From positions 28,214,386-28,278,385 of the forward strand of contig OX344752.2 in assembly GCA_947034885.2 (NCBI GenBank): DNA of 64,000 nt. The letters run 5' to 3'. The DNA is from Thuidium tamariscinum. Lineage: Eukaryota > Streptophyta > Bryopsida > Hypnales > Thuidiaceae. The position numbers and the translations under genes are program-made. The notes under the pieces were generated by a model that was given only the letters and a program-made list of their open reading frames with translations, ran no database searches and was not told the origin of the DNA. This document shows positions 1 through 53,379 of the stretch, piece by piece (the stretch's first letter is position 1; each line of letters opens with the position of its first letter).

Positions 1-3000
1 ATCATGATGGAATCCTCTGAAGTATGATTTGAAGTCTGCCACCTCTTGCACGAACTCCGGAATGAAGGCTACCGTTTTCTGTGAGTCCATGAACGCCTTC
101 ATGAGATCCGCAAGAACGTATGTGTTCTTCCTTTTGATGAGTTTTGAGAGGTAACTAAAGTGCGCGTCAATGTCCTCGTGCATATGCCCGACAATGAGGA
201 ATCCTACCGAAACTTCCTTGAATATGTGTCTAGTAGTGAGTAGTGAGCAGAAAGCCATGAGGAATCTATTCTTATTGTCCTTTGCTGAATTGTCGAGTTG
301 CAAGAAGAGTTTTTTGGGCAGTGGGACCTAAGGTCGACCTAGTGTTGGTGCGTCTGTGAGCTTGTCCGAGGACTGCGGGATTGACGAGTTGCATCTGGAT
401 TTGCCATGCAGCAGAGCCTCAAAGAAGCTGTTTAGCGGTGGAGTGGAGAAGAGTATCTTTGACTCCCGCACAGGAGGTAGTTCTAGGGCCCTGAGTACCC
501 TACAGATGGATGAAATAGTAAAATTTGAATCCCCCGGCCAGAGTGATGTGGAGTAATGTGCGTATGCGCCATCTCCATGTCCATGTGTGAGCATTCCAGT
601 ACATGAGATTGGAATTTGGCCTAGTCCTGCGGTGGCCTTTGTGATGCGTTGCATCCTGGGAATGGCAGTCTTTGTGGTGTCCATTTTGTCATGAATAATG
701 TAGAGGAACTCTGATGAATTCTGCACTGACTGTGCGGTCCATCCGCTGCATACATTTCTACAAGCACGCTGGTAATTGAGATGTCTCTCTCTGTCGTCGA
801 CGAGTGCTTGCCACTCATCACAACCTCTGGGATACTTTGCAATGAATTCTACGAGAAAGTCACATTCTGTGCATTTTGAGAAATTGCTCCCTACTGCCTT
901 GACCTCTACGTTTTTGAAATGAGCATTTCGAAGTCGGCTAATAGCAGACTGGGATACCGTCTTCATATTGCATATTCCATTGACCTGAAGAACATGACTA
1001 CATGGATGAGTTTCCACGTAAGACGATAGAGTTGTATCGGCTGGCAGCCGATAGAACTGCGAATGCCGGCCTACAGAAAGGAAAGATCTATGGCTCCTAG
1101 ATTCTAAGTCGAGCCTTGATTGTATCGGCTGGCAGCCGATAGAGGGACATTTATATTGTAGACGAGGAGGCAGATGTTGGACTTACATAATTGACTTGTT
1201 CGTGGATGTGATCCCAATTCATTGCAGAGGGTAGGACCTTGAGATTGTCGACGCGTTTATTTCCAACCATTCTGAACTCGTTTGGCATCTTGTCTGCATT
1301 CTCGTTGATGATCGTTTTGAGGGTTGCTTGAGCTTGTATTGTTTGTGGCCGTGGCCGTCGAGCCCCCGCATTTCCATGTGACCCGTTGACGGATCCTCCG
1401 GCGGCCGCAGCCTTGTAAACATGATAGGCCGACCTGGATACCCTGTGAATGATATACCATGCGTTCTCGCAGATGTCTCTATTAGCAAGAGTGATGAATT
1501 TTTTTCCTGGAATAATCCCTGCATGAAGTTGACTCTACACCGTATACGCTACCTCCCTCCTACTCTCGAATGTGCAAGCGAAGAACTTTCGTCGTATAGA
1601 CTTGGTGTCCTCCCAGGGAAACGTCTGGCAGCATCTGAGCTTACAGCACTTCTGTGAGCTGACCTTACGTACCTCCGCCTCCGAGGTCTGGCTTTGCAAC
1701 CTGGACTGGCGGGGAATGATCTTTCTGCGCACAGAGCGGTATGGATTCCTCGGTACCCCCTGCATTCCGTCATCGTCCGACTTATTCAACAGAGTAGCCT
1801 GTGAGCAAAGCGTGACAATTTCTGATAGTAGCTTTTCCCCCTCCAATCTTATGTGTGTGAGCCTCTAGCGCATGGTTGTCATTTGCAGTTCGTGACTGTC
1901 CGATACAAACATGACCCCAACATCCGTGTTGCCTAGGACGCCATCATCGCAAGCCTCATCTGGTAGGCAGACTTGGATCATGGCTCTTCTCAGTACCGAG
2001 AAGTCGTCATTGAGAAGTTGACAGTATTGATTTCTCTAGAGCGGTCTATCCGGGATTGGAAGTCTAGCTTGCACTCCATCCGGATCGGCATTATCTCCCC
2101 TTTGAGTACCATCTCTAAACGCGTCCGAATGATCCATGCTGTCAGCAACACTTGCGTCGGACGCGCCAATGCCAGAGGTGTTGTAACCATGAACATTGCG
2201 ATGGTCGTGTGCAGACCCGCGGTTGTCATCGTCTGACAAATAGAGTCTATCATCTCGCTCGTCTTCGTTTGATGTAGTAGGAAGTACCCGATGTGATCCC
2301 GGATCACCGAGTTCTACTTGCACATTGTTCGAACTTCCACCACTCTCACAATTCCCATCGACTTGAGCCTGCATGAAATTGGTTGCAGGTGCTCCTGTCA
2401 GCTGGTAGCCGACAATGTTGGTCATGGGGACAGAGGTCTGGATTGGTTTGACCTTGTAACCACTCCAGAGTATTTTGTATCCTACACAACGTTTGAGTGT
2501 GATGAAATCAGGAATCTCGCAATAGGTAGTGTGATTCTTGAAATCATCGACGACGTGTAAGAGCTTTACAACGAGGAAGAAGCTGTGTGGAATGCGGAAG
2601 CCTCCCCAATACCCCTTCGGAGAACACTCTACAATTGTACCTACACCAACATAGAATAGAGTGTCACCCAGAGTCTGGAGAAGTGAGACATCCATATGGA
2701 CAGTGAGTGACAGGAATTGTTGTATGGGTTTCTCATCAGTGAGCACTTCTATCGGCTGCCGGCCGACAGCAGCAGCAGAAGACCCTTCCGCCTCTGCGTG
2801 GGAATAAACGTTGCCTGCCTCCTATACGATTGACCTTCCCAGGCAATGTCTTAGGAAAACCATGTCTCCCTTCGGAAACGGAAGAGCCATATCGAGGTTG
2901 TTTGGAACATCTAGGACATGAACGCATACGAGGTATGGATCGCGGCTGACCACCCTTTCTACAACCGCCCTTCCAATGTAGTATAATCCCTCCAGTGTGA

Positions 3001-3104
3001 GCCACAACAACTCCCTTCTACAGTTTCAGTCTTCCCGACCCGCCATTTCATGTGAATGCCTCAATAGGACTGGCACCCGAGGTCCAGTCATCAGAGCCAC
3101 TCAT
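1..3104 (-). pseudogene. Gene A: DUF7869/transposase-like multi-exon gene, 3' end cut by the window edge
   Basis: Read on the minus strand, the frames give a protein with the usual features of the large DUF7869 family found in plants and oomycetes. There is a Cys-rich CCKLRC segment followed by a basic stretch (about 1640-1580), a KCTECDF segment (about 885), a DKMDTTK...IPRMQ block (about 690), LTHGHGDGAY (about 590), and KKLFLQLDN...KDNKNR with VGHMHEDID at 315-170. This family is thought to be transposon-derived; its catalysis is not settled. Introns I can place are 985-1186 (GTAAGT donor, CAG acceptor) and 2369-2452; a third begins near 2830. Each carries one or two copies of the 19-bp dyad. 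From 2368 to 1187 one frame runs on, interrupted only by TAG (minus-strand TAG at 2036-2038, 1865-1867 and 1535-1537); a fourth TAG is at 328-330. No TAA, TGA or frameshift was seen in these exons. A possible start is the ATG at 3104; the 5' end is uncertain. The gene is either a decayed copy or recoded. Confidence 0.6.
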
Positions 3105-4260
3105 GATTCGAAATCGGGGTGAGAACCCAGAATGTGGGAATTTCTGCTTCCTTCAAACCCGTGATGACCTTATCGGTTGGCAGCTGATACGTTTGTGTAT
3201 CAAATGCTTGACGACCTAGCAGATACGGAAATCGGTATCGGCTGGTAGCCGATACCACTGTCTGTACGGTCAAGCACAAGGGTAGGACCGTACAGCTAGA
3301 ACTCTGGGGATCATGCACGAAGCTAGATTTTTCGATTCCTATGATCTACGCACTGTCCACAGATGCTCGGACCAGGTTGAATCATGAAATGGAAGCACAA
3401 ACGCAACCAAATAGGAAATCAAGAACCTCTGACAAACAACTAATTTTCGAAAATGCAATTCCAATCCTACTGCAATTCAAATTTGGCTCCCAGCAATTCC
3501 AATCCTACTACATTTCCTACGTAAGCCTGAACGCCAAACAACAAGTTCTGTCCGAGAGCGCTTCATGAACCCGAGGACTACTGAATGCGTAAGCTCTGCA
3601 CTGGGCTGAGGTCTACTAAATTCCCTCTCTAACGTTGCATCCTTCCTAAACATTCCACAAGAAGCCACTGCAATTCCCTGACGGTTCTTGGACGCTCTGA
3701 GTGTGTGTGTGGGGCAAATGGAAATGGAAAATGAAGTCCTCCAAGATCAGATCCTAGGTGAGCAAGGTTGTGACATAATTTGGCGCCTGAAATTTGAATT
3801 TGAAAGAGGATGAAGTTGTGGTGATTGCAAGAGAGACAAGTCCGTGCATGAGGAGATCGTGGTTGGAAACGTACGCATCTGAGCAATGAGTGTTCGTCAC
3901 TTGCATGTACTTCGCTGGATGTGGAGTACACGGTAGCGGATGGAAACCGGGCGATGGATGAAATCTTAGGATGAACGGACTCGGTTTGTCATGATTGCGC
4001 CCCTCGGCTGGCAGCCGAGGGTATCCCCCTCAGGCCACTTTCATTTTCTCACATTTGCCATTTGCGTCTCCTGCTCCCTCTCTCTCCCTCTCTCCCTCTC
4101 CCTCTTGCCTTCCAGCTTGCAGCTGACACCCCCTCGTAGAGCAGAGGAGCAGCCGATAGGCGTTTCTGGGCAGCCGACAAAGAAGGAGTGCGAGGCAGGT
4201 GTTTTTCTTCAGCAGTCGGCAAGTCTTTTTGAGCAGCTGACAAGCGTCATTCCTTTGGCG
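3105..4260. promoter_or_regulatory. Intergenic region between divergent genes A and B
   Basis: About 1.1 kb separates the probable 5' ends of gene A (minus) and gene B (plus). It holds three dyad copies (3171, 3236, 4001) and a pyrimidine-rich CT tract at about 4077-4115. A run of dyad half-sites (GCAGCCGATA, GCAGCCGACA, GCAGCTGACA) lies at 4110-4250. The divergent layout suggests a shared promoter region. No TATA box or mapped start site can be shown. Open frames here look like chance readings. Confidence 0.4.
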
Positions 4261-7200
4261 ATGGCGACCTCCAGTTTGGCAACAGAGAGGTACTTTTCTA
4301 TACATGTATTGGCTGCCAGCCGATACATTATCATTTCTCAAATATTTTTCAGGACAACCATTGAGAATCTGAGGCACCTGTGGGTTGCTATATTGGTTGG
4401 CAGCCGACAGATATGGGAGCACTTAGTAAAATCCTGAGCTCATGCGATGTCGGCTGGCAGCCGATATAATTCTGGGACGGTGGTCATACGATGATCTATA
4501 AATGACTTTTGAAGGTAGGGTTTAGGGACTCAGTGGCTGTATCGGCTGGCAGCCGATACAATAGATGCACAAAGTGGAGGTACATAGTAAGAACTTACTG
4601 AGCATTCAATTGTACCGTTTTGTAGGAAACCGACTCTCTTGGCCCGAATTCTAGGTGAGCAAATCCCGAACTCTGGGATTTGGGGGGACGGGTTTCCACC
4701 ACGAGCAATATGGTGGGGGATCGAGGCCATCCAGGAATGGGGCTTGTGCTGGAGGCAGTCACCCGACAAAAAAATGGACATCGTATGCTCCTTCAAGTTG
4801 AAGGGGAACATGACCCCTGGCAAGGGAAGTGTGTTGTCCGTTAGGGCTGTTGGCGATTTCGTGTATGTGATGATATGCTTGATGCCATTGGCAAGCACGG
4901 ACGGAGTCCCCGATTATTTCGCGGTGGAGCTGCCGGTGAACAAGTGCACAGAGGAGGTCTGTGGACAGAAGTCCATGTCCATGGGCATGACATTTGCTGG
5001 GAACACACCATCGACAGCAAAGGAGCTCATTTAGGGGTGGGAGTGCTTGAAGCAAGAGCGCGATGAGCACAATGCGTTCGTCGCTCGTGAGTTGGAAAAG
5101 GGGAAGAAGAAGGTCCCCGCGGAGAGAAAGCTGGTGGCGACGATAGTGGCTGAGGTCGCTGAAACCGATCTTGAGGAGCCGGGGTCCCCGTCCAAACCAA
5201 AGTGGAAAGGAAAGGGCAAGGATGACCCAACGAAGCTGCTCAAGCTCACACTGGACGAAGCACTCCAACGTAGAAATCACCTCACCACGAAGACCAAGGA
5301 GAACGAGGTGAACGCTATTTACCAGGCGTTGGAGACGGGGCTCCTACACGCATTTCCTTACAAGAAGCAGCGTCTTCCGAGGGTCATTCACTCAAGCAAG
5401 TTGCACATTGCACCGGACGAGCTCAAATACCGGAAGATTGCGAAGGACCGGCTTGGACAGGTATTTGGATGATCACTCGTATCTCTCGTTGATCAAAGTC
5501 ATTTGATTTCTTGTATCAGCTGGCAGCTGACATGTGTAACTTGTCATTAATGGTTCGGCCTTCTGTCATTTCAGGTGAAGACCATGTATAAGGGATATAG
5601 GTCCATCAGGAAAAAGCCGAAAATACATGGGATTCCTTTGAAGCGGGCTCCATTGCCGAAGGACAAAAGGCTGGACGCAGTGATGGACAAGTGTCCCGGG
5701 CAGGAGGAACTCACTGTTGTCCACGGCATCTCAATGTCGTGGTGGAAGGCGCCAAATGTGCACTGGTACATCATTGGCGGGCAACATACGGTGACGGCCT
5801 GTCGAGAACTCGCTGAGTAGTATCCCGATGGCTCTGATGCCAAAACCGACCTCCTGGAGTTCGAGGTGATTCCGGTGTTCAGTAGAGACCCGGACACACT
5901 CGTCAGAGTCTCCAATGCCCTCAATCTCAACATCGCTGAGAAGGTGGCGAAGGAGAACTTCAGATCCTACACAAAGATGGGGAGAGCGGCGTGGGTGAAG
6001 GCGGGATGCCCAGAGCCGCATCGTGGAGGAGGTAAGCCGACACCAGCATTCGAGGTATTACCCATGCTTCTTTGCTTTGTTATGCTATTTGCTGAATACG
6101 TTATGTATCGGCTGCCAGCCGATACCTGTAAGCTCTGTTCTAAGCATTGTGGTTGAACTCTGGCAGGCTGCGAAGTTGAAGGTGATGGCGCACTTCGTGG
6201 AGGAAAAGGTGTCCTCCAAGTTGCCACTCATCTTCATCAAGGAGAGCACTTGGGTGCTGTAGACGAAGGTGTTCGATGCGTGGGAGAACGGGGAACTCAT
6301 TGGCAACGACGGGACTGTGCCCAATCTCCTGGTCAACCGGAAACCCCTCACACACATTACAAAAACGGATCTCACGCCAACGCTGGGGCTTCGTGATTCA
6401 GATCTGTGCGAGCTGGGGCAGGAGATTGTTGCCCTCCGCGTGAGCATCAAGAACACCGCCAAGGCAAAGTCCTCAGGGAAGATCATTCTCTTCGACTGGT
6501 GCAAGGACAAGAAGCTCGACAGGATTGTCATGAACAAGATCATGTGGACCAAGAAGAAGTATCCCCTTCCTTGCAAGGACGCGGGCTGGACCCCATATAC
6601 GGATGAGGATTGGAAGGAGCTGGCTAACAAGGAGGGGTACTCAGCGGCCGTAGTCCGGAACGTCTGGAAGGACATGATGAAGTTCACGGACGCAAGCAAT
6701 TGGTTGAAGGGGAGAGTCAACCCCATGAATCCAACCACGGACAAGTCCACGGATGGCAAGGCGTCGGGGGTCTTCTTCATGGCTTTGGCAAGCTACGTCA
6801 AAGTCCACTTGCCTACCACGGTACGCAAGTCAAGCGACCTACAATACGAATGCCATGTTGGACAGAGTATTGTAGAGGTGGTCGAATTCGTTCGTCAATC
6901 CAAGGGGACGATGGCGCTGGAACCCGAGGACAAGAAATTCCTGGTCCTCTTCGGATATACAGATATGGGGGAACCTCTTGGGGTGAACAGGAACGATCTG
7001 CTCGATCTATCGTTCGCAGCAGAAATTCCGGACGGGGCAGATGACGAAGACGGCGAACCTTACATCCCCCTGCCAATGCTCCTCATCGGGAACTCGCGGT
7101 TCCGTGATTCTGTCGCCATGACAGCGCACTCATCCTCGTTCGACTGGTACTACCATGCGGTGTACTACCAGCCATCTCCCCGGGGAGGCTTTCAGAAGGC

Positions 7201-9472
7201 CGAGATTGAGTCCAGGCCTTTGGTCATTCTCTCCTTGACCTTTCCGAAGCCCGAGGACAGGCTTAGTCTTTTCCCAGTCTTCAAGCACTTTACTGGGATC
7301 AACAAGGCGCTTGACTTGTTTAATTTCGACGTCGAGGGAGAGGTCGACTGGAATGGTGGGATGTGCGGGGTTGGCCATGGACTGCTCGAAAAACTCATGC
7401 TACCCACCCTCAAAGCCAAGGATGCCACTGTCATCAACATCTGGGGAGGCGGTAACATCACGGAGATCGCTCTGGTACGTTTTCTTATCCCATCCTCACA
7501 CTTGTAGTGCTTAGAGGAAGTCACTCTCTGTCGGTTGGCAACCGATACAATAGATTGCTGACTTGCACTCCATGGCTGCGCAGAGGAATGGACGGGCAGT
7601 TATGGAGTTCGTTCGGGAGGAGGACGGATTGGAGAAGGCCAAGGAACGTGTGAGGGGAATGAACCTCCTCTCCACGGATTCCCTGGGACCTTCTCAGGTG
7701 ACGTTGGCGGTGACAGACCAGGAGGGGCAACCGGCACCTACGCAATCAACTCAGCAACCGCGGCCGTTGTCCAGCCTCGTTCTACCCCAGGCTCCGGGGG
7801 GCGTCGCTCAAACTCAGTGGTTGTAGGGTCAGTCTCAGGAGCAATCACCAATTCCGACGATTGAGACTGACTCAGACAAGGAGAGCTCCCCGGAAGCAAC
7901 ATTCATTCGAAGGGGACGGCAACCACGTCCTTCATCTCCGAGGCCTTCTCTCAATCCACCCTCGACTCAAATTCAGGACCGCCCCCTGCTGCTCCCACAC
8001 AGAAATTCATCGCTCGCAATGGTCGTGGATTTGCACGCTGAGCCACCGTTGGAGGAGATAAGCAGGCTCCCTCTGCCTCAAGTGGTCGTCGCGGCAACGG
8101 AGCCTCAGGTGGGAGTCACTGCACTTGGCCGACCGGCGACTATAGCCGACATTCGTGTTGGCGGCCAACCGACACCCATGGAGATTTCACCGCCAGAATC
8201 AAGACGGGGAAGAAGCAAGGGGGCACCGTTGGAAAAGGAGTCGGAGTCGGCGGACTCGCGCCGCTCAACTCGAATCTATCCGAAGCGAAAGCGATCCAAT
8301 GAGGACAAAGACGGTGGCGCGGCGGCGCGGGTTCAGGACTTCCCGAATGAGGAGATGTCTCCCGTCCGATCTCAAAAGAGGACTCAGATTGGAGGTTCGT
8401 AGGCGATAGATATGCTCCGCGATGTTTGTGGAGTATCTTATATAGCTCGTTCATAAGTAGAACTGCCTAGCTCAGACTCATGCGTAGACATGTCAGGAGG
8501 AGCCTTTACTTGGGCAAACTAGAGTTTCTCTCGACTATGTCAGCTGCCAACCGATACAGTGCAGAAATGTTTGGTCATCTACCTAAGTTCATAGCATCTC
8601 ATGTTCTATGTATTTCGTTTGGCAATGCAGATGATGACTATCACAATCCTAGGAATTCCTCCGACACCGAATCTGAGGCTAGCAATGAGAATTACCAGCC
8701 ACAAACACAAGACAAAGTAGGGACTCCCGACAGTGCTGGCCCTGCTCAGGTAGCGACTCCGAAGTTGTTTCTTTTCCTTGAAGTTCATGGAACTCTACTT
8801 TTCTATGAGCCACTCATTTTCAAAGGGAAGAGTATGCATCAGAGGTCGACAGTGAGAGAGCGACCAGGTCTCCGGGAGTTCATCATGTTTTGTAAGGGTC
8901 AAGACATTGTGATTGTCTACTAGTCGATTTTACCCAAGCAGACTCTCGAGCAGCGCCTTCATAACCTTAGATGGAAGGCGCCGGAGATCGGAGAGGATTA
9001 CCTGGCCTTTGGACAGGAGTTCTGTGACGAGAGTACTTACCGAGACCCTCAGAATTCATCACGACCAATTTTTCTGAAGCGTCTCGCAAGAATTCTCGGA
9101 TCATCTTCCTTGTACAATAATGGCGCCACGATCAACAACTCATTGATCGTGGACTCAGAGCCATATAGGAACATTTTGAATCTGCCATATAATGCGATTC
9201 ATCCGCCCCCTGTAACCATGTACTCGGAGAAATCACTTAAGGCAGGGAAACTACCTTATCTCCAGGCGACCATGATCCCGTTCATTGAACGGCTCTTATC
9301 TTCGGGACTCACGGTCCCAAAGTTCTGTGAGAGGAACTCGTCCATTGGGATTGCACGATGTATGTCGAGCACCCCTATGCATAATCAGTACGTGAATGTG
9401 ACACCAAAGTATCAGATGGGATTCGAGGTGCCATATTCACAGGAGGAGCTAGAGGCCTTGGGAATTCCATAG
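4261..9472 (+). pseudogene. Gene B: ParB/sulfiredoxin-like domain plus FCP1-like HAD domain, multi-exon mobile-element gene
   Basis: Exons run about 4626-5460, 5575-6054, 6167-7474, 7584-8394 and 8631-9472; a short first exon from ATG 4261 is possible. All introns placed have GT-AG ends and phases that fit. The exon at 5575-6054 encodes a ParB/Srx-like core: YIIGGQHTVTACREL, then EFEVIPVFSRDPDTL and SNALNLNIAEK. It resembles the GG.HR..A box, but Thr replaces the usual Arg. The 7584-8394 exon is a Pro/Ser/charged linker, probably disordered. The last exon resembles plant FCP1/NLI-interacting HAD phosphatases: LFLEVHGTL, VRERPGLREF, LIVDSEPYRNILNLPYNAI. The first catalytic Asp is Glu, so activity is doubtful. 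In-frame TAG codons lie at 5032, 5818, 6260, 7824 and 8921, with no TAA, TGA or frameshift. The terminal TAG is at 9470. Gene B is divergent from gene A and may belong to the same element. The domain calls are by eye. Confidence 0.55.
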
Positions 9473-9940
9473 CCGACGCGACGGGATGGAGGAGGCGTAG
9501 TGTATCGGTTGCCAACCGACACACTCTTCTGTAGATTGTACATATTCTCTGTAGATACAGGACGGGTAGACTAAATCTTCCGTGGACATTATTTTCTTCT
9601 GTATGGATTAAACATTTTTTTGTAATGAAGACATTATAGTCAAATTTTTTCCAAAGCATGTGCATGGGACACTCACTCTCAAAGCATTCCAATGTTTCCT
9701 TTGAGAGTTTCATCATTAGGTCTTGGACATTGGAATCATGTGATTGCAATAATGTGGGGGCAGGCACTCAATCATCTCTACGTCTATCTAGCACATGTTT
9801 CTTTCTCAACAATAATTATTGCCTGCTGCATTGGGTCAGGCCCCAGTATCGGCTGCTAGCCGATACCTACTGCATGCTCTTCTTTCATCGGATGCTTATG
9901 TTGTGGAATCATGTATCCACTAACTTATCTTCTGTTTAGG

Positions 9941-10590
9941 AGTCCAACGTTGGACATACACAGTCGTTCAAGAAATGTGTGGTTCTAGGAGTCACGGGAC
10001 TACTATGTTATCTCGACCCGAATATCAAGGTGGACAAGTCAGACCCACACAGAAACGTCATTAAAAGGCCGGGGCTAGTTGCTATGTTCATGACATTGTT
10101 TCAAAAGTTTCACGTAGGAATTTGTTCAAGGTTGCCAATACTTCAACTTAGGCCTTTGCTTGCACACTTGCTTCCAAAACATATCAGAGACAACCTAGCG
10201 TTCGTTTATGGCAGAGAGTACTGTGTAGATAGCCTCAAGTTCCCATGGTGCTACAAAATGCTCTCAATACTTCATACTAAAAGACCATCTAGGATTACAT
10301 GCTTCACGGACCAAGTGCTCATCGTCAATGTGTGCCCGCTTGCGCTCAGAAGGACGCCGGATATAGCGTGCTATATTCCACTACCATTCAAGGGAGATCT
10401 CAATTTTCCGAACACTAGTAGAGTTATTCCAAACATTTCAAAAGATATTATTCCATTCATTTATCCCATGCACCAGCATTAGTCAGTCTCAGAATACATC
10501 AAAGGCGCACACAGACCGGGACAATTACACTATGAGGTTGCACAATCAATCAAGTATGGCAAGCCAAATTGGCAGAGGATATTCTAGTGA
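9941..10590 (+). pseudogene. Second FCP1-like HAD domain, last exon of gene B or a tandem gene
   Basis: After a TTTAG acceptor at 9940 an open frame encodes a second FCP1-like HAD fold: VVLGVTGLLCYL at the motif-I position, VIKRPGLVAMF, FHVGICSRLP, VYGREYC, then VLIVNVCPLALRRTPDIACYIP at the place where active enzymes have IDDSP. Both catalytic Asp residues of the DxDx(T/V) motif are missing (GVT here), so it looks like a pseudo-phosphatase. One in-frame TAG is at 10480-10482. The frame then continues (SVSEYIKGAHRPGQ) to TAG-TGA at 10585-10590. The preceding non-coding interval 9473-9940 carries two dyad copies (9503, 9847). It may be one long intron joining this exon to gene B, or a 3' flank plus a new promoter. 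The two HAD domains differ too much to be a recent duplication. Confidence 0.5.
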
Positions 10591-10983
10591 TTGGCCCTAC
10601 ATCGTGTCGGCCGCCAGCCGATACAACGTATCAGTGGAATCGGGGGGGCTACAAGACCTTCATGTCTCGTCCCCTTATTTAGAAATTGGAATAGCTGTGA
10701 TTTCAACGCCAGTCCTATCGAGTCCACTGCCTCATCACTACAAGACCTCCTTTCTAGAGGTTTGGGGGGGGGATATCGGTTGCCAGTTGATACTTCCGAT
10801 TTTTTTACTTGGATCGGATGGACTCAGGGTTTAGGGTTTATGGTCGACAATTCGTCGCTCTTCATCTTACAGATGAATGCCGTAGCCACTTGTCACTTTA
10901 CGTAGTTAGGACACTTCCATAGATCTAAGTGCTCTAGTGAATGATGTTAGGAATCGGCTGCCAATATCAAGCGCCAGCCGATA

Positions 10984-13440
10984 CTTTGTCACAAATGAGG
11001 ACACAACATACGTGTTTATTTAATAAAAAAATTTCATAAACTATTAGCTCTGAACTCTTTTATGGGCCAGGTGTTGTTTCTTTAGTGGTTGCAACCATTT
11101 TTGTTCACTGCTGGTGGCACACAAAACTATGCATTCGACTATATCGACTGACGGCCAATTTATTTCTGGACTATGGATTTGTCCATAATTAGTTAAATAT
11201 TAGTTATTCCAAGTATTCTCGGGTTTTTTTATATTCTAAGATATCTCTAAAGGATTTTATCCTTAACTTGATCTCTAATTATCTTTTAGCCTAATTGGCG
11301 TACTATTCTTTCACTGCTTTAACCTTGGATACTTAAATAGTTAATTTGAGTTTTACCTTAATAGGAATAATTTCATCCTTCCACGGTAAATTTGGATCGT
11401 TGGCCGGTTCACCCAACTTTTACCTTGTTGACTCCTTTTTTATCTAAGGGGTTTAATTCTTTTGGATTTATCCTTTTACCTTTCCTAGTTTACTAAGTTA
11501 AATTCCGTTCTGTATTCCTCAAATAAAATTGATCATAAGTAAATTTTGACCATTGACCGGTTCAAAGTTTACCTGTCAACTACTTTTCCTTGGAATTGCT
11601 TATGGCTTTCAACTTTCTACTTGTACTTTCTAAATCTAAAAATCTAAATTCCCTCTTGACTCTAACTTTGTCTAATTTTTTATGGTGTTGGACTTTGGGT
11701 AATTCTAGATTCGTGTTACTTAATAGCTAAATTCTATGACTAAAAGGAAATTACGGAAAAAATGGAAACAACAAAATTTCAAAGACTAACCTCCATCATG
11801 GCGCTTTCGAGGTCTTCGTGTGATTCGATAAATACTCCATTTTGCGCTCGCTCCACCTCCATCTTGGTGTTTTCCGTGTTTTGGTTGAATACCTTTGACT
11901 GGGGGTTTTTTCCTTTAAAAATCTCCCTCCTTCCTCCAACTTTGTTTTGTAGCTTTCTTTATCTTTTGAGCTCCTTCCCTCTCTTTAAAATGGTTCCAAG
12001 GTCAACTTTATAAAATATCCTAGTATAATCTAACTTTTGAAATTAATTGCTAATGGTCTTAAAAGTCAACTTCACAACTAAGTTTTTTCTAACTTTCCTC
12101 TAATTTGGAACTATTCTAGAGTGTCTCTAAATCAATTGATTATTTTGTTTTCATTTTTTATTGTTTGACTTCCTAACAATTCTAAACTATGTTTCCAAAG
12201 TCAAAGTTCAACTATAGTTTAATGGTCAAATACGGAATACTATGTCTAACTCTCTCTATACTACTAATCTCTCATTCCAAACTTGCCCTTGTATACTTGT
12301 GATTTCGAATTTGAGTGAGATCAAATTGTGTCTTTTGTATCTAATGCATCAAGTGAGCTTAGATTGTCTGAAGGCTCTGCAAGCTGGGAGGTGGCTAGAT
12401 GGAGTTGGAGATGGTGGGTGAGGCCTAGTCAACGAGCGTTGACCCAACCAGTGGCCTTCTGAGGTTTGGCTCAGGCTTCCCCTGGTATGTTGATTTGGGT
12501 TGCTGGTATGCTGGACTGGCTCCCCTCTGATGTTTGATTTTTGGAACTCTCACCTTCCCACTCTAGTATGTTGATTTGGGTTGCCTGGTTACTGGACTGA
12601 GGCTTCCTCTCTGATGTTTGATTTTTGGAACTCTCACGTCCCCCACTCTAACTTAGAATTCTCACACTGGTTCACCTTCAGACTTTCCCAAGCTAATTTA
12701 TCCTTTTCCTCAAACTGGGTGCAAATTGGGAGCCCCTTCTTCCCTGATTTCTAGCCCTTTCCCACTCACCAGTTGATTGCCTAATTAATTGGCCCTGGAC
12801 CCTTTGTTTTTCCCAAATCAATCTTCCTGATGGTAATGTATGTGAGAAAATTGGCCGACCCCCCTCAGTCAAGCAACCGACTGAGTGAGCTGGAGGATCA
12901 GAAAGGGAGTGGGGTGACCTGTTGAGTGGACACGTGGCCTCTGACTGCCAGCGGCTGTGGCCGGACTAACTGCTTGCCGGCTGGGCTGTTGTTCGGGCTA
13001 GCTACCACCAGACTGCTAGCCTCGCTGGTCTGTATTCGGTTGCTGGACTATTGGTCTCGTACTAAAAACTGGTTAATCCCAACTTGGTATTCTCAAGCCA
13101 CTATTGGGTCTCTTTAATGGGGACCCTTTCAATCAAAACTAAACCGGAGTTGTCTATAATTCTTAACATAACTTGGGGGGCTAAACTAAAGGGAAACAAA
13201 AGGATTCTATTTTCTAAGGAAATATTATGTGGGGGTGCAAAGCTTCGCCGTACTAGAGGTGTGGACCTCAAATTCTAGGATGACTCTGCTAGGGCTCCGC
13301 TACTCTAAGAGCCAAAAAGAAGTGTGGATCCTTCCCAACTTCCTTGGTGCAATGGGGACCCAAATCACCCGTTTAAGCTTAGGGGGATCCTCGATAAGCC
13401 AATCCAGGCTGTGAATCCCTTGTCAAAAGACTTAAATCGA
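10984..13440. other. Non-coding AT-rich interval, repeat-derived
   Basis: No convincing coding sequence was seen. Base composition drops sharply from the GC-richer 1-10.8 kb island to T-rich DNA just after 11 kb. A degenerate dyad-like sequence near 11,142 may be the last relic of the hairpin family. From about 12,300 the sequence becomes more GC-balanced and contains a tandem duplication. Confidence 0.5.
12485..12650. repeat. Tandem duplication, two units of 81 and 85 bp
   Basis: Two adjacent units, 12485-12565 and 12566-12650, both begin GTATGTTGATTTGGGTTGC and end in CCCACTCTA. They share a long central block (CTGATGTTTGATTTTTGGAA). The units differ by small indels and a few substitutions, so the duplication is not very recent. 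Confidence 0.85.
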
Positions 13441-21400: not shown

Positions 21401-22118
21401 GGAGATGGAGAATATTGGCATTCAGCCTGATCCGTTTACATATTGCTCACTTATTACTATTCTTGGGAAGGCAGGTCGAGTGGATGATGCTTCCCAATTA
21501 TTTGCTGAAATGAGGTTGAAAGGATGCACACCAGATGTGATCACTTACAATACATATCTGAACTCGTTGGGCAAATGTGGTCGATACAAAGAAGCACGTA
21601 CTGTTTTCCAGGAAATGAAACTGAATGGACTTGTGCCTGATGCTACAACATACGACTCTCTCCTCACAGGATTGTCGAAAACTGAAGAGTTGGACGATGC
21701 CTGTGATCTGCTGAGAGAGCTGATTGAGCAAGGCTGTGCATTTGATTCACTCAAGTTCGACGAGTTTTTGGAGATTCTTAGCAGTTTAGGCAAAGTGAAC
21801 CAAGCTTATGAGTTGCTCCAGTTTGCAAATGAACGCGGACTTTGGCCTGGTACTAGCTCATACAATGCTCTCATCGACGCACTCGCGAAAGCGGGAAGGA
21901 TTAAAAAAGCATATAATACTTTTGAGGAGCTAAAAGATCGAGGAGGCAAACCTGACATCGTTAGTTACACGAGCCTGATTAATGCGCTGGGAAGAGCGGG
22001 TCAAATCGACACGGCTTTTGAGCTTTTGGAAGAGATGAGTAAACGTGGCCTCAGGCTCAGCCCTCGGTCGTATTCAAATCTGGTTCGAAAGCTTCAGGAT
22101 TGGGGTGCTCGAGCTTAG
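18432..22118 (+). CDS. P-class pentatricopeptide repeat (PPR) protein, 977 aa, two coding exons
   Basis: Exon 1 is 18432-18801 and exon 2 is 19555-22118. The intron (GGTAATT donor, TGATGTAG acceptor) joins ATC-G to GG-CAT in frame, giving 977 residues. The N terminus (MAQSLVSRSSKALLMRRR) is basic, Ser-rich and nearly acid-free, like a mitochondrial or plastid transit peptide. From about residue 188 to 960 there are 22 tandem 35-residue P motifs plus a partial one, typically VVTYN.LI..LGKAGR...A..LF.EM...GC.PD. No E, DYW, SMR or L/S motifs follow, so it is a P-class RNA-binding protein acting on organelle transcripts. By the PPR code (residues 5 and 35; N/D reads U, S/D G, S/N A, N/N C), motifs 4-18 read roughly A-C-U-A-U-U-U-G-?-U-G-U-G-?-U. 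The exact orthologue was not identified. Plant PPR genes are often intronless; here the intron separates the presequence from the repeats. Confidence 0.93.
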
Positions 22119-49099: not shown

Positions 49100-50437
49100 G
49101 TATGTAGCTAGAACCTTCACGTTCACTGTTTTCTTCCTGCACTTGCCTTATTCAATTTAGCATCTTCATTTCTATCTTTGTGGTGTTTGAAAGTTTTCCA
49201 TATTTTGGGTTTAGGTTGATACTGATTATTGAACTCACTTCATGGATGTTGGATTAATCTTCTACATGGTACGGGATGGAAATTGTGGCTGTTTTTCTTC
49301 AATTTCTTCAACGGTACCACAAACTTAGGTAAGCTTCTAACCATTTCCATGGAACACCTACCATTTTGACATTCAGAAGTGGATTACATATTGGAAGTTC
49401 GAAACTTTGGCTTATTTTAGAGGTATTTGTCATGTTCTGGTAGAATTGAAATTGGACTTCTGTTACCTTTGAGCTTAGGCTGAGATACTAGGGAGTGTTA
49501 TTCTACATTTTGGATTGGGCATTGGACAGTGTGGGTGTTCATTGAGTTAGGAAAGGAGTTTCACTAGTAGAAAACGCAGGAATTTTGACAGAATTCTGTT
49601 GATTTGGTCGCGTTGTTTTGGTCACTGTTTTGTTGATTTCAACAGAAATCTGTTAATTCTAACAGATTTCTGTTGAAATCAACAAAACAGTGACCAAAAC
49701 AACGCGACCAAATCAACGGAATTCTGTCAAAATTCCTGCGTTTTCTACTAGTGTTTTGAGACATTAGTGGCAAGCATTTGTCATTGTAGGTGTTCACTGC
49801 GGGTGTTCATGATGTTTCCGTATTGAAGGTTGGACATTTGTTAGTATGTTTGTTCATTGAGGTAGTTTGGTATATCTGAGTACAATATGCTGGAACTTTT
49901 GTCACTATTGTTGTGCATTGAGGGTGTTTGACCCTAGTAGGGTTAGACATTTGTCATTTTGAGCGTTCATTGAGGTACCTTAGGGTGTTTGAATGCATGT
50001 GGTTTGGACATATGTTGTTCGAGGTATTTAGTGAGGATGTTGAGGGTGTTTAGGGATAGTGGGATTGAAGACTCTGTTACTGTAACTGTTCATATAGGCT
50101 GTTTAGGGTATATGTGGACATTAGGGATTGAAAGTGGACACACTGAGAGTATACTTTTTTATAGAGAGATGCTTGTTGGTTGTTTCATTAAGTTTGGGTG
50201 TTTCTAGAATTTGTTCAGTTGTACACATACGATAGGCTTGAAATATTGGACATTAGTTGGTTTAGGTGTTCATTGAGGTAGTCTAGGCCTTTAGGATGTT
50301 TGTGTACAGTAGAGACTTGGTGTTGCATATTTGTGACTATGGAGATTCTTTATGACAGTTTAGGGTGTTCAAAAGCTTAGATAGAAAAGAATACTGTACA
50401 CATTGTTCTAATCCCAATGTTGTCACACTTTGTGCAG
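49100..50437 (+). other. Large intron of gene C made of degenerate tandem repeats
   Basis: The 1338-nt intron contains many loose copies of phrases such as GGACATTTGT, GTTCATTGAGG and TTTAGGGTGTTT at roughly 50-70 bp spacing (from about 49,500 to 50,350), interrupted by the MITE at 49562-49753. No coding sequence is seen. Confidence 0.6.
49562..49753. mobile_element. Foldback MITE, 192 bp, CACTA-type ends
   Basis: Nearly the whole element is one palindrome: CACTAGTAGAAAACGCAGGA at the left, the reverse complement at the right, arms of about 90 bp and a small centre (TGTTAATTCTAACA). It is flanked by TTT on both sides (49559-49561 and 49754-49756), fitting the 3-bp target duplication and CACTA terminus of CACTA/Spm elements. 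The arms differ by very few bases, so the insertion is young or conserved by selection. Confidence 0.85.
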
Positions 50438-53379
50438 ATGGAGTTCTACCTTAGATTTCAAAGGGCCTACCCTGAAATCATTATAGGAAAGAGGTCCTTT
50501 GACTTGCTACGCCCTTTTTGGGTGAAAAGGATGAAAGAGAGGAACACTTGCTGTTGTATATATCATGTTGAAATTTCGGAATTACTTGAAGCGCTAAACA
50601 ATATGCGGTTGAAGTCTGGCCTGCATGCTCGTTGCACTTGTACGTGTGATTGTGAAGAGATTTGTGGCTCACTTGAGGTAAGTGGCATTGGCTGCCAAGG
50701 TAAGGAGGTAAGATACACTGGAACTACCGAGCTTTGGAAATCAGTAGTGTGTCCAAAAGATGAATTTGTTGAGTGGCATGCACGGGATTGTTTGTTTGGT
50801 TTGTGTGACAACTGTGGTGTTGATTACTTGCCGATCTGCCCTGTTGAGGAAGAAGGAACCTCTGGAATTAAAGTATCATGGAAGAGATTTGAAATGAAAA
50901 CCATTGTCACTACAAAAGGGGAAGAAAAACAGAAATTACATTTTGCTTACAAGTGCACTACATCTGATGAGTTGGTAGACTATTTGAAGCCAAAATTGCA
51001 ATTCTTTGTTCAGCATAACTTTATTGCTAGATGGCAAGATAAACAATTTAAAAAGAGTTTAGAAAATATTCCTATTGACGGAATTGTCTCTGTGATTGAC
51101 TTTGCTGAAAACTATAGCTTTGAGATACAAAATGAGGTGCAATCAATGCATTGGCAGAACTATCAAATATCCATTCTTGTCCAAATTAGTTGGACAAGAA
51201 ATCCTAACCCTGACCCTAGTGATCCTAGTACTAATGCTTTGATGAAGTATCACTTCTATATTTCTGATGACAGGAAACATGATTCTTATTTTGTGCAACA
51301 TTGTTTGAACTTGCATTGGAAAGATTTGCATGAATCAGGCTTTTATCCAAAGCAATATTGGATTTGGTCAGATGGTTGTTTTTCTCAATTCAAAAGTAAA
51401 GTACCTTGGTACTATGTCAGTTGTTATCCTCATCTAAGTGGTGGTTGCATATGTTGGTGGAATTTCTTTGGTTCAGGGCATGGTAAGGGCCCACACGATG
51501 GAGCTGGAGCTATAGTGAAAAGATTCATCCGTAAAGCTTAGCTGGATCGTGAAGGCCCTGAATTTGCAAATGCTGCCCAAATTGTGCAAATGTTGCGAGA
51601 GAAATTGTCCTGCAGACCTGAAACCTGTTATACTGGGACAAACAGGAGCGATGTGACCCGTGTGTTTTGGCACATTTCGAAGTTGACATTGGCTACAGAA
51701 CGAGAGACCCCCTTTACTACCATGCCTATTGCTGGAACTAGAGATTTGCACTCCATTCGCTCTGTGAATGCTATTTCCACCAACAGGTTGCTCACAAAGA
51801 GTTTGGCTTGTTTTTGTTGCTTTTGCTTGGATTGTAAGTGGGATAGCTGTGAGAATTTGGCTTGGACACTTGGGTGGAGTGTGGAGGTACTAATTCTTGA
51901 CAATGTAGTGCATGTCCGATCAGCTATTTCCGAAAACTTTGATGGCAGTTTGTGGACAGATTATGGTGGTGATGGGGAAGAGCTAGCTGGTTGTATTGAA
52001 TTGGGTGATAATTTTGCAACCAATGCGGAAGAAGGTGATGATGGTAATGCTGATTTTGAAGTACTTATGTGCACAAAGCCAGCTTTTACAGTCCAGGAAT
52101 CTTTCACTTGCCCTTGGGGTCAAGAATTCTTGGTTGGAAGACCTTTGTATAGGTGGACTGTATTACCAAAGATACAGTCGAGATACAAGAAACTATGTAC
52201 TTCTTAGGAAGTCTAAAGTAGCTCATCTTCATGCGTGCTAAGTGAGGGCTGTCAAATTCCCCATGGTGCCTCAAGATTACCGAGTGTCAAGCAATGACGT
52301 GGTTTACAGACTACACTGTGATGCTTCTGCTGGTATTCTAAGTGCCATTGCAGTGTTAGAGTCTTAATGTGTTGTGAAGGCACCTTTAGATTGTTCTGAA
52401 TTTCAAGCCTTTTTGGTAGAAAGTCTTTGTAAGTAGTTATTGTTTGAATTAGAATTCTATCTTGTTGCATTGTTTTAGTTAATATTGCTTGTATATTGGT
52501 TAGTGTAGGCTAGAGTAGGACAATCATACTGCAATGGGCAGTTCAAGAGGTTCAATTCCTCCATGATTGATCTCTGAATTCAAAATTTGAAATCAAGACT
52601 TGATGTTGTTGCATTTCACAATTCAGTTCATAGGGTGACCAGAATTTGTTGCAATATTCTGGTCAAACTACAAGGGCTTGAACTTGTTCATATTGTTCTG
52701 TACTTTTAGAATTCAAGGTAGTACATAGTCATGAAATATGTTCTTCATTAAGTAGCAAGTGTAAGACAGACTTTGCTTTGAAAACTCTTCTAAAGGCATC
52801 ATACTTCTTTAAATATTTGGAGGTGGTTTAGGGTGAGATCCTAGTACGCTACTATCTTATCTCGATTCATCCTATATGAGATCATATTTAGACCAACAAT
52901 CATTGTAATCTCACAATTTAGTCACAAGGATTGAAATTTCTCTTTTTAGTTTGATTTTGAAAATTTTATGCCAACACGTGTTTGTTAAAAAATCATTTCC
53001 AAATTTGGACTTTAAAGATGCCACATTTAGCTTTGGCTCTATGGGCATCATCTAAGATGTTAAACATTAACAAATTGTACTTGAATAGCTCACAATGTGC
53101 AATAGATTTAGGCTAAATTCATCTTGATCTTCTTTGATATGAAATAGTAATGGCATTGAAGCCAAAAGATACTTTCATATATAGTGGACATATAAATGAA
53201 GACATCAACCAAATGAATTGTGAATGTAGGAGTGCAAAAGAATATTACTTAAGGTTTAGGAGAATGATCCAATAGAATTACTAAAGTGTATATTGGAAGA
53301 AAAAAAATTGGGGGTTCTTTTGAATAGACCCAAGAAAATAAGTAATAAAAAAAAAGTGGTTGTAGGTGGTGGTTCCAAG

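Follow-up and report, generated by a model that had tools for sequence, protein, structure and literature searches.

Introduction

In the literature drawn on here, sequence-specific anti-silencing by transposons is described for the VANDAL elements of Arabidopsis, and TnpA and MURA are precedents in part. Both the chromatin immunoprecipitation signal of VANC21 and its motif are found in the non-coding DNA of VANDAL21, namely in introns, between genes, and toward the ends (PMC5735166). Host silencing is directed at the same kinds of region, and TnpA, the Spm protein linked to demethylation, and MURA are cited as precedents (PMC10398659). Fungal DNA transposons that carry TET/JBP dioxygenases escape methylation-based silencing enzymatically (PMC12730594). 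Here we describe a palindromic 19-bp sequence, termed the dyad, that is repeated through a mobile-element-like unit of the moss Thuidium tamariscinum. The unit occupies the first 11 kb of a stretch of 64,000 nucleotides (contig OX344752.2 of assembly GCA_947034885.2, positions 28,214,386 to 28,278,385 of the forward strand), which is referred to as the window. All coordinates are positions in the window.

The unit contains two divergent genes, one on the minus strand (left-hand gene) and one on the plus strand (right-hand gene). The left-hand protein contains a DUF7869 domain, which we take to be associated with transposons. The unit is likely to be a mobile element and is called the element below; we put this no higher than likely, because a single copy was analyzed. 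The left part of the element lies beyond the window. The other 53 kb of the window hold a PPR gene, in DNA that is mostly richer in AT.

Distribution and Conservation of the Dyad

The dyad has the palindromic consensus TRTYRGYTG-S-CARCYRAYA (R is dA or dG, Y is dC or dT, and S is dC or dG). When positions 1-11200 were searched with TRTYRGYTGSCARCYRAYA we found 12 exact matches, 19 matches with at most one mismatch, and 21 with at most three. The remaining 52.8 kb of the window (11201-64000) had none at up to three mismatches, and in 60 dinucleotide shuffles the mean counts were 0.0, 0.0, and 0.3 for exact matches, at most one, and at most three mismatches, respectively. At exactly four mismatches, four matches lay within the element and four outside it. 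The threshold was kept more stringent than four mismatches because matches then also appear outside the element. The 21 copies used in this work are the 19 with at most one mismatch and two weak ones, at 4002 (four mismatches) and 10965 (three mismatches). A match with three mismatches at 4110-4128, which was counted as the half-site at 4120, and the four-mismatch matches at 4161, 4395, and 11142 were not counted as dyads.

A first-pass annotation of the window had reported about 20 copies between 1035 and 10983, and this number was borne out. It had also stated that the host genes eS1, TIM22, and PPR lack the dyad. The absence of copies from 11201-64000 agrees with this statement for the PPR gene, which was the one of the three that we checked. 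Neighbouring dyads were at most 1.43 kb apart throughout the visible part of the element (21 copies).

All 19 positions of the dyad were conserved, each with more than 0.8 bit of information. In the flanks the base immediately before the dyad had 0.6 bit and all others had 0.34 bit or less. Conservation thus stops sharply at the edge of the palindrome. The central base was dG in 11 copies and dC in 10, and the two were equally frequent (5 vs. 5) among the ten copies placed in introns of the right-hand gene.

Half of the dyad was also found on its own. Four exact copies of the half-site CAGCYRAYA are located within 123 nt (4120-4242, plus strand, starting at 4120, 4150, 4171, and 4234) upstream of the ATG at 4261, all in one direction, where 0.55 is expected per 11 kb of random sequence; none of 300 Markov sequences had four half-sites equally close. 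At 10952-10983, in a split dyad that includes the weak copy 10965, two half-sites have their normal facing but lie 14 nt apart, where the other dyads have a gap of 1. Such half-sites, whether single or in facing pairs, are commonly seen where dimeric proteins bind DNA. The split dyad looks as though a small insertion has parted its halves.

The deviations from the consensus were mostly transitions (41 of 45). Once the R/Y positions 2 and 18 were set aside, 24 of the remaining 31 deviations were C>T or G>A changes, and all consensus Cs except the central one are in a CG or CHG context. This is the pattern that would be expected of a methylated plant element.

Placement of the Dyads in Introns and Other Non-coding DNA

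Introns were predicted from the sequence by GT-AG ends and reading frame. The gene models were drawn with the positions of the dyads known, and the tests of placement were therefore not blind. Five introns are forced by a frame shift or an in-frame stop, and every one of them contains a dyad. In the left-hand gene this is the 202-nt intron 985-1186 (minus strand), with two copies of perfect consensus at 1035-1053 and 1123-1141. In the right-hand gene (plus strand) these are 5461-5574 (114 nt, dyad at 5514-5532), 6055-6166 (112 nt, perfect dyad at 6106-6124), 7475-7583 (109 nt, dyad at 7529-7547), and 8395-8630 (236 nt, dyad at 8538-8556).

Three further introns of the right-hand gene were accepted with less certainty. 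The likely intron 4290-4352 (63 nt, dyad at 4307-4325) has good splice signals and is open in frame, so that the frame does not force it. The 246-nt intron 4380-4625, which presupposes a leader exon beginning with ATG 4261, contains three dyads, at 4391-4409, 4448-4466, and 4540-4558, the last of perfect consensus; these may alternatively be in a leader. Both count as introns only if the gene begins at ATG 4261. The probable intron 9497-9939 (443 nt) contains dyads at 9503-9521 and 9847-9865. The first-pass annotation had placed seven introns by phase, each with a dyad. The five forced introns were among them, whereas 2369-2452 (84 nt) and 4290-4352 are open multiples of three nucleotides, and their phase therefore cannot prove them to be introns.

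Accordingly, six dyads are in the five forced introns, four in 4290-4352 and 4380-4625, and two in the probable intron 9497-9939. Two copies with one mismatch each to the degenerate pattern fall between classes: 2396-2414 lies in the doubtful intron 2369-2452, which may be exon, and 2750-2768 may be intronic or coding. Three are intergenic. Two of these, 3171-3189 and 3236-3254, lie between the divergent genes, and the weak dyad 4002-4020, in which both ends are altered symmetrically, lies upstream of the right-hand gene. The 3' flank of the right-hand gene holds 10605-10623, 10774-10792, and the weak copy at 10965. The degraded dyad 8156-8174 lies within an exon. The emphasis that the annotation had put on introns is overstated, as seven copies are non-intronic (3171, 3236, 4002, 8156, 10605, 10774, and 10965), and 2396 and 2750 are undecided.

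With 2396 and 2750 both taken as coding, 17 or 18 of the 21 dyads were located in non-coding DNA, which makes up 27-28% of the possible positions (P 4e-8 to 4e-7 for four gene models). The introns occupied were 7 of 7, 6 of 6, or 5 of 5, depending on the model, compared to expected numbers of 4.0, 3.6, and 2.8 (P 0.006, 0.027, and 0.04). We therefore consider the exclusion from exons strong and the presence of a dyad in each intron suggestive. The dyads are a feature of the non-coding DNA of the element and not of introns as such. Of the three readings offered in the annotation, the one that fits is that exons are kept free of a site at which a protein would bind.

In the introns of 109-114 nt the distance from the center of the dyad is 60-63 nt to the 5' splice site and 45-51 nt to the 3' one, within the 45-63 nt reported before. 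In longer introns the dyads are not always central, and two of them start 6 nt (9497-9939) and 11 nt (4380-4625) past the donor.

Comparison With Described Systems

The closest likeness is to VANDAL21 and VANDAL6, which have an element-specific short motif that is repeated in non-coding DNA including introns, intergenic, and terminal regions (PMC5735166; PMC10398659). The present element resembles them in this respect, as its motif is concentrated in non-coding DNA, is found in all forced introns, and has no copy at up to three mismatches in the rest of the window. The earlier statement that no plant element of this design has been described is right only in part, since sites for VANC21 are known from introns, intergenic, and terminal DNA of VANDAL21 (PMC5735166). 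The two systems differ in the motif itself. The VANC motifs given in these sources, YAGTATTAY (9 bp) and AGTTGTCC/AGTTGTAC (8 bp), are non-palindromic on inspection and in tandem, whereas the motif described here is a dispersed 19-bp dyad. The VANDAL motifs form dense arrays in the same direction, while here only the half-sites at 4120-4242 are co-directional. Furthermore, VANDAL elements encode a Mutator-like transposase (VANA), in contrast to the DUF7869 protein of the visible part of the present element, and no Mutator domain was found in its scanned exons.

For TnpA of Spm/En, a CACTA element, there are multiple short sites in the subterminal regions. The dyads are not confined to the ends in this way but run through the body of the element (1035-10983), and the scanned exons contained no CACTA Pfam domain. 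The likeness to Spm/En is that an element protein activates a methylated promoter, with demethylation linked to TnpA (PMC10398659). With the fungal transposons the likeness is a transposon-borne escape from silencing; the part of that report drawn on here mentions no recurring site (PMC12730594), and the scanned exons of the element yielded no TET/JBP domain. Introners likewise have a repeated sequence within introns, but they are alike nearly to both splice sites (PMC9860276), whereas the introns with dyads are unlike outside the 19 bp. Literature searches made by subject yielded no description of the dyad; the dyad letters themselves were not sought.

Candidate Roles of the Dyads

The array is real and non-random. 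It is of an ordinary kind, putative sites for a protein on a transposon, and is unusual in its extent, through the body of the element and in all forced introns, and in the element that carries it.

We propose that a dimeric protein recognizes the two half-sites of each dyad in double-stranded DNA, and that this protein is most likely encoded by the element itself. Scattered over the non-coding parts, the sites would tag the element along its full length for recognition by a protein of its own. When bound, the protein would activate the promoters of the element and counter DNA methylation by the host so that the chromatin of the element stays open, in the manner of VANC on VANDAL and TnpA on Spm. 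We propose an anti-silencing array bound by an element protein because the placement is like that of VANC21 sites and the substitutions are of the methylation type. As a whole, this explanation is the best of those considered, and we lean toward it with modest confidence. Its parts differ in strength. That the dyads are sites of protein-DNA contact is quite probable, while anti-silencing as their main role is a tentative suggestion by analogy. The array may work like VANC outside the VANDAL family.

Several observations weigh against this explanation. Pfam recognized no DNA-binding domain in the scanned exons of the element, and no binder was identified. The VANC motifs, as far as given in the source, have 8-9 bp, are not palindromic, and for VANC21 stand in same-direction arrays, whereas the dyads are dispersed palindromes. 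The visible part of the element does not include its left end, which is needed to judge clustering of dyads toward the ends, and the anti-silencing view draws on the letters of one copy. The spacing of the dyads was not more even than chance (largest gap of non-coding copies 2048 nt, P 0.15-0.17). Complementarity between the arms was slightly above permutation when all 21 copies were included (P 0.033), which was due to 4002 and 10965. Finally, in each of the three introns of 109-114 nt the dyad starts at a steady distance of 51-54 nt past the donor (P 0.004-0.014 depending on the margin, in a test chosen post hoc after the offset was noticed). A pure binding site does not predict such an offset. 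We treat this objection as weak because the branch-site region restricts the room available.

Ordinary binding of a transposase is the strongest rival. The DUF7869 protein would bind the dyads to form a transposition complex, and internal copies would be surplus or would regulate the promoter of the transposase itself. Short repeated sites for the transposase of an element are a common design; the subterminal repeats of CACTA and Ac elements are bound by the element transposases (TnpA and Ac transposase). The element has a DUF7869 gene and has dyads in the 3' flank, and a spacing no more even than chance (P 0.15-0.17) leaves room for such a role. However, sites are not limited to the visible end but occupy introns across some 10 kb, where synapsis of the ends needs none. 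We find this alternative unlikely, though it deserves to be kept in view.

The dyads could also be bound by a host protein, either a transcription factor or repressor that recognizes the element, or one whose enhancers were captured by it. The dyad is not tied to any element protein, which would suit this alternative. Against it, no copy with up to three mismatches was found in the other 52.8 kb, a result that applies to the window only. A host protein is a less probable candidate than a transposase.

An RNA hairpin bringing the splice sites together had also been suggested in the first-pass annotation; it would act by folding short introns. In its favor, a dyad is present in all five forced introns and starts 51-54 nt past the donor in those three that have lengths of 109-114 nt, and a hairpin was present in the predicted fold of five of eight intron segments (z -4.4 for 4290-4352, for instance). 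The folding covered eight of the 12 dyads in accepted introns; for four of these eight, cut segments were used. In the other three segments the hairpin was missing: 5461-5574 (z 0.69), 7475-7583 (z 0.20), and 8490-8630 (z -0.47). Selection for a hairpin should give covarying arms and an excess of G-U over A-C mismatches, and is disfavored because neither was seen. Compared to permuted arms, the 14 intron-assigned copies, which include the doubtful 2396 and 2750, showed no covariation (P 0.18), nor did the 19 copies without 4002 and 10965 (P 0.21); in the intron copies the arms vary independently. Mismatches on the sense strand of the 14 copies were near equal (nine G-U vs. seven A-C). The supposed loop is conserved equally with the stem, seven copies are non-intronic, and two more are undecided. 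No Rfam family matched within the window at gathering score. Taken together, the lack of covariation between the arms, the kinds of mismatch, the predicted folds, and the copies that lie outside introns lead us to reject a splicing hairpin as very improbable.

The last suggestion of the annotation was that the introns arose when an introner-like unit with a hairpin was inserted. It can be drawn from the phase 0 and dyad offset that the three introns of similar length have in common, but is rejected as scarcely credible, since an all-against-all comparison of nine introns (2369-2452 included) with the dyads masked gave a single match, which was a shared exon flank, and the published screen demands similarity to near both splice sites and is reported to have found no introners in land plants (PMC9860276). 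The masked comparison upheld the claim that the introns share no other obvious similarity, as nothing common was left outside the 19 bp.

The Two Genes and Their In-Frame TAG Codons

The left-hand gene, identified by reading frame and Pfam, spans 1-2668 on the minus strand and continues past the edge of the window. It consists of exons 2668-1187 and 984-1 and contains four in-frame TAG codons. DUF7869 was found in the last visible exon, 984-1, with TAG translated as Q (Pfam E 4.7e-38). No paper pairing DUF7869 with transpos* was found in the literature searched. The right-hand gene, drawn from the reading frame, spans 4261-10587 on the plus strand. Its eight exons join as one uninterrupted frame with seven in-frame TAG codons. 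The sole named database match of this gene was a weak one to a NIF-phosphatase-like domain at 9940-10482 (Pfam E 0.001, under the curated cut-off).

The two genes (1-2668, minus; 4261-10584, plus) keep their frame across 2489 codons, which include 11 in-frame stops; all of these are TAG and none TAA or TGA. Under random point mutation the probability of this pattern is about 2e-4. It fits deamination at methylated CHG sites, where CAG would become TAG. The lack of TGA is odd, given that 21 CGA codons remain in the element genes. A reading of TAG as sense in these genes is retained as a candidate. Over the window, sense-reading opened 36 long frames for TAG, fewer than for TAA (46) and TGA (70), and the window yielded no tRNA. 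A second frame that looks transposon-like by eye, at 50381-52207 (plus strand, 386 + 221 aa), is broken by a single TAG (51539-51541) and had no Pfam match at E up to 0.1. The frame of the PPR gene (plus strand) stops at a TAG at 22116-22118. Since a TGA follows eight codons later, this frame is no clear guide to whether TAG is read as a stop in this genome.

Further features were seen in the two proteins. The N-terminus of the DUF7869 protein has a possible duplicated module (2822-3022 vs. 2453-2668, minus strand, pairwise E 0.003 over 33 residues). In the right-hand protein, two weakly alike NIF/FCP1-phosphatase-like stretches lie in tandem at 8732-9469 and 9940-10545 (plus strand, pairwise E 0.026). 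Only the second has the Pfam NIF match (E 0.001), and by eye the catalytic aspartates appear to be lost in both. Also by eye, the right-hand protein has a ParB-like motif at 5575-6054 (plus strand) and a DNA-methyltransferase-like motif at about 7400-7650 (plus strand). The idea of a ParB/parS system, prompted by GGQHTVTACREL at 5575-6054, was rejected, as Pfam gave no match and a profile comparison with 24 bacterial ParB proteins was not above five shuffles. The methyltransferase-like appearance (VINIWGGGN...NGRAVMEFVREE) was likewise not accepted; it was judged by eye only, and Pfam on single exons gave no match. Structure prediction of two exons from single sequences, with no alignment, gave a mean predicted local distance difference test score of 36.8 and 33.7 and was unusable.

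Searches for relatives gave little. The dyad consensus with either central base had no exact match in viral contigs, three protein scans of viral contigs revealed no relative of the exons tried, and tblastn of one exon in phages found none. Searches of PDB with three exons gave chance matches or none. In PHROGs there were two weak matches of unknown function, with E 0.004 (16 residues of 5641-5817) and E 0.09 (328-1182). One match in a genome contig was judged to be chance, a short HGHGD motif in a bacterial reading frame that resembles a metallo-hydrolase. DUF7869 had no match in 21 bacterial genomes and 14 controls, which is uninformative on eukaryotes.

Implications

A further step would be that a non-Mutator, DUF7869-type family has independently evolved palindromic docking sites over the whole element, with one or more in each forced intron and others in the intergenic gap, at which its own protein keeps the element unmethylated. 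It would then be a convergent counterpart of VANC, and introns would be places for sites without harm to the proteins. This is a speculative extension, which we hold to be somewhat less probable than the anti-silencing role alone.

Conserved palindromes in the introns of transposons are not necessarily splicing signals, and caution is needed in reading them as such. If the proposed function is true, the dyad offers a long and specific site for tools of targeted demethylation. A second, unrelated element with sites in both introns and intergenic gaps would suggest that coverage of the whole body is a general solution, and the rule would be checkable across families by counting sites per non-coding interval.

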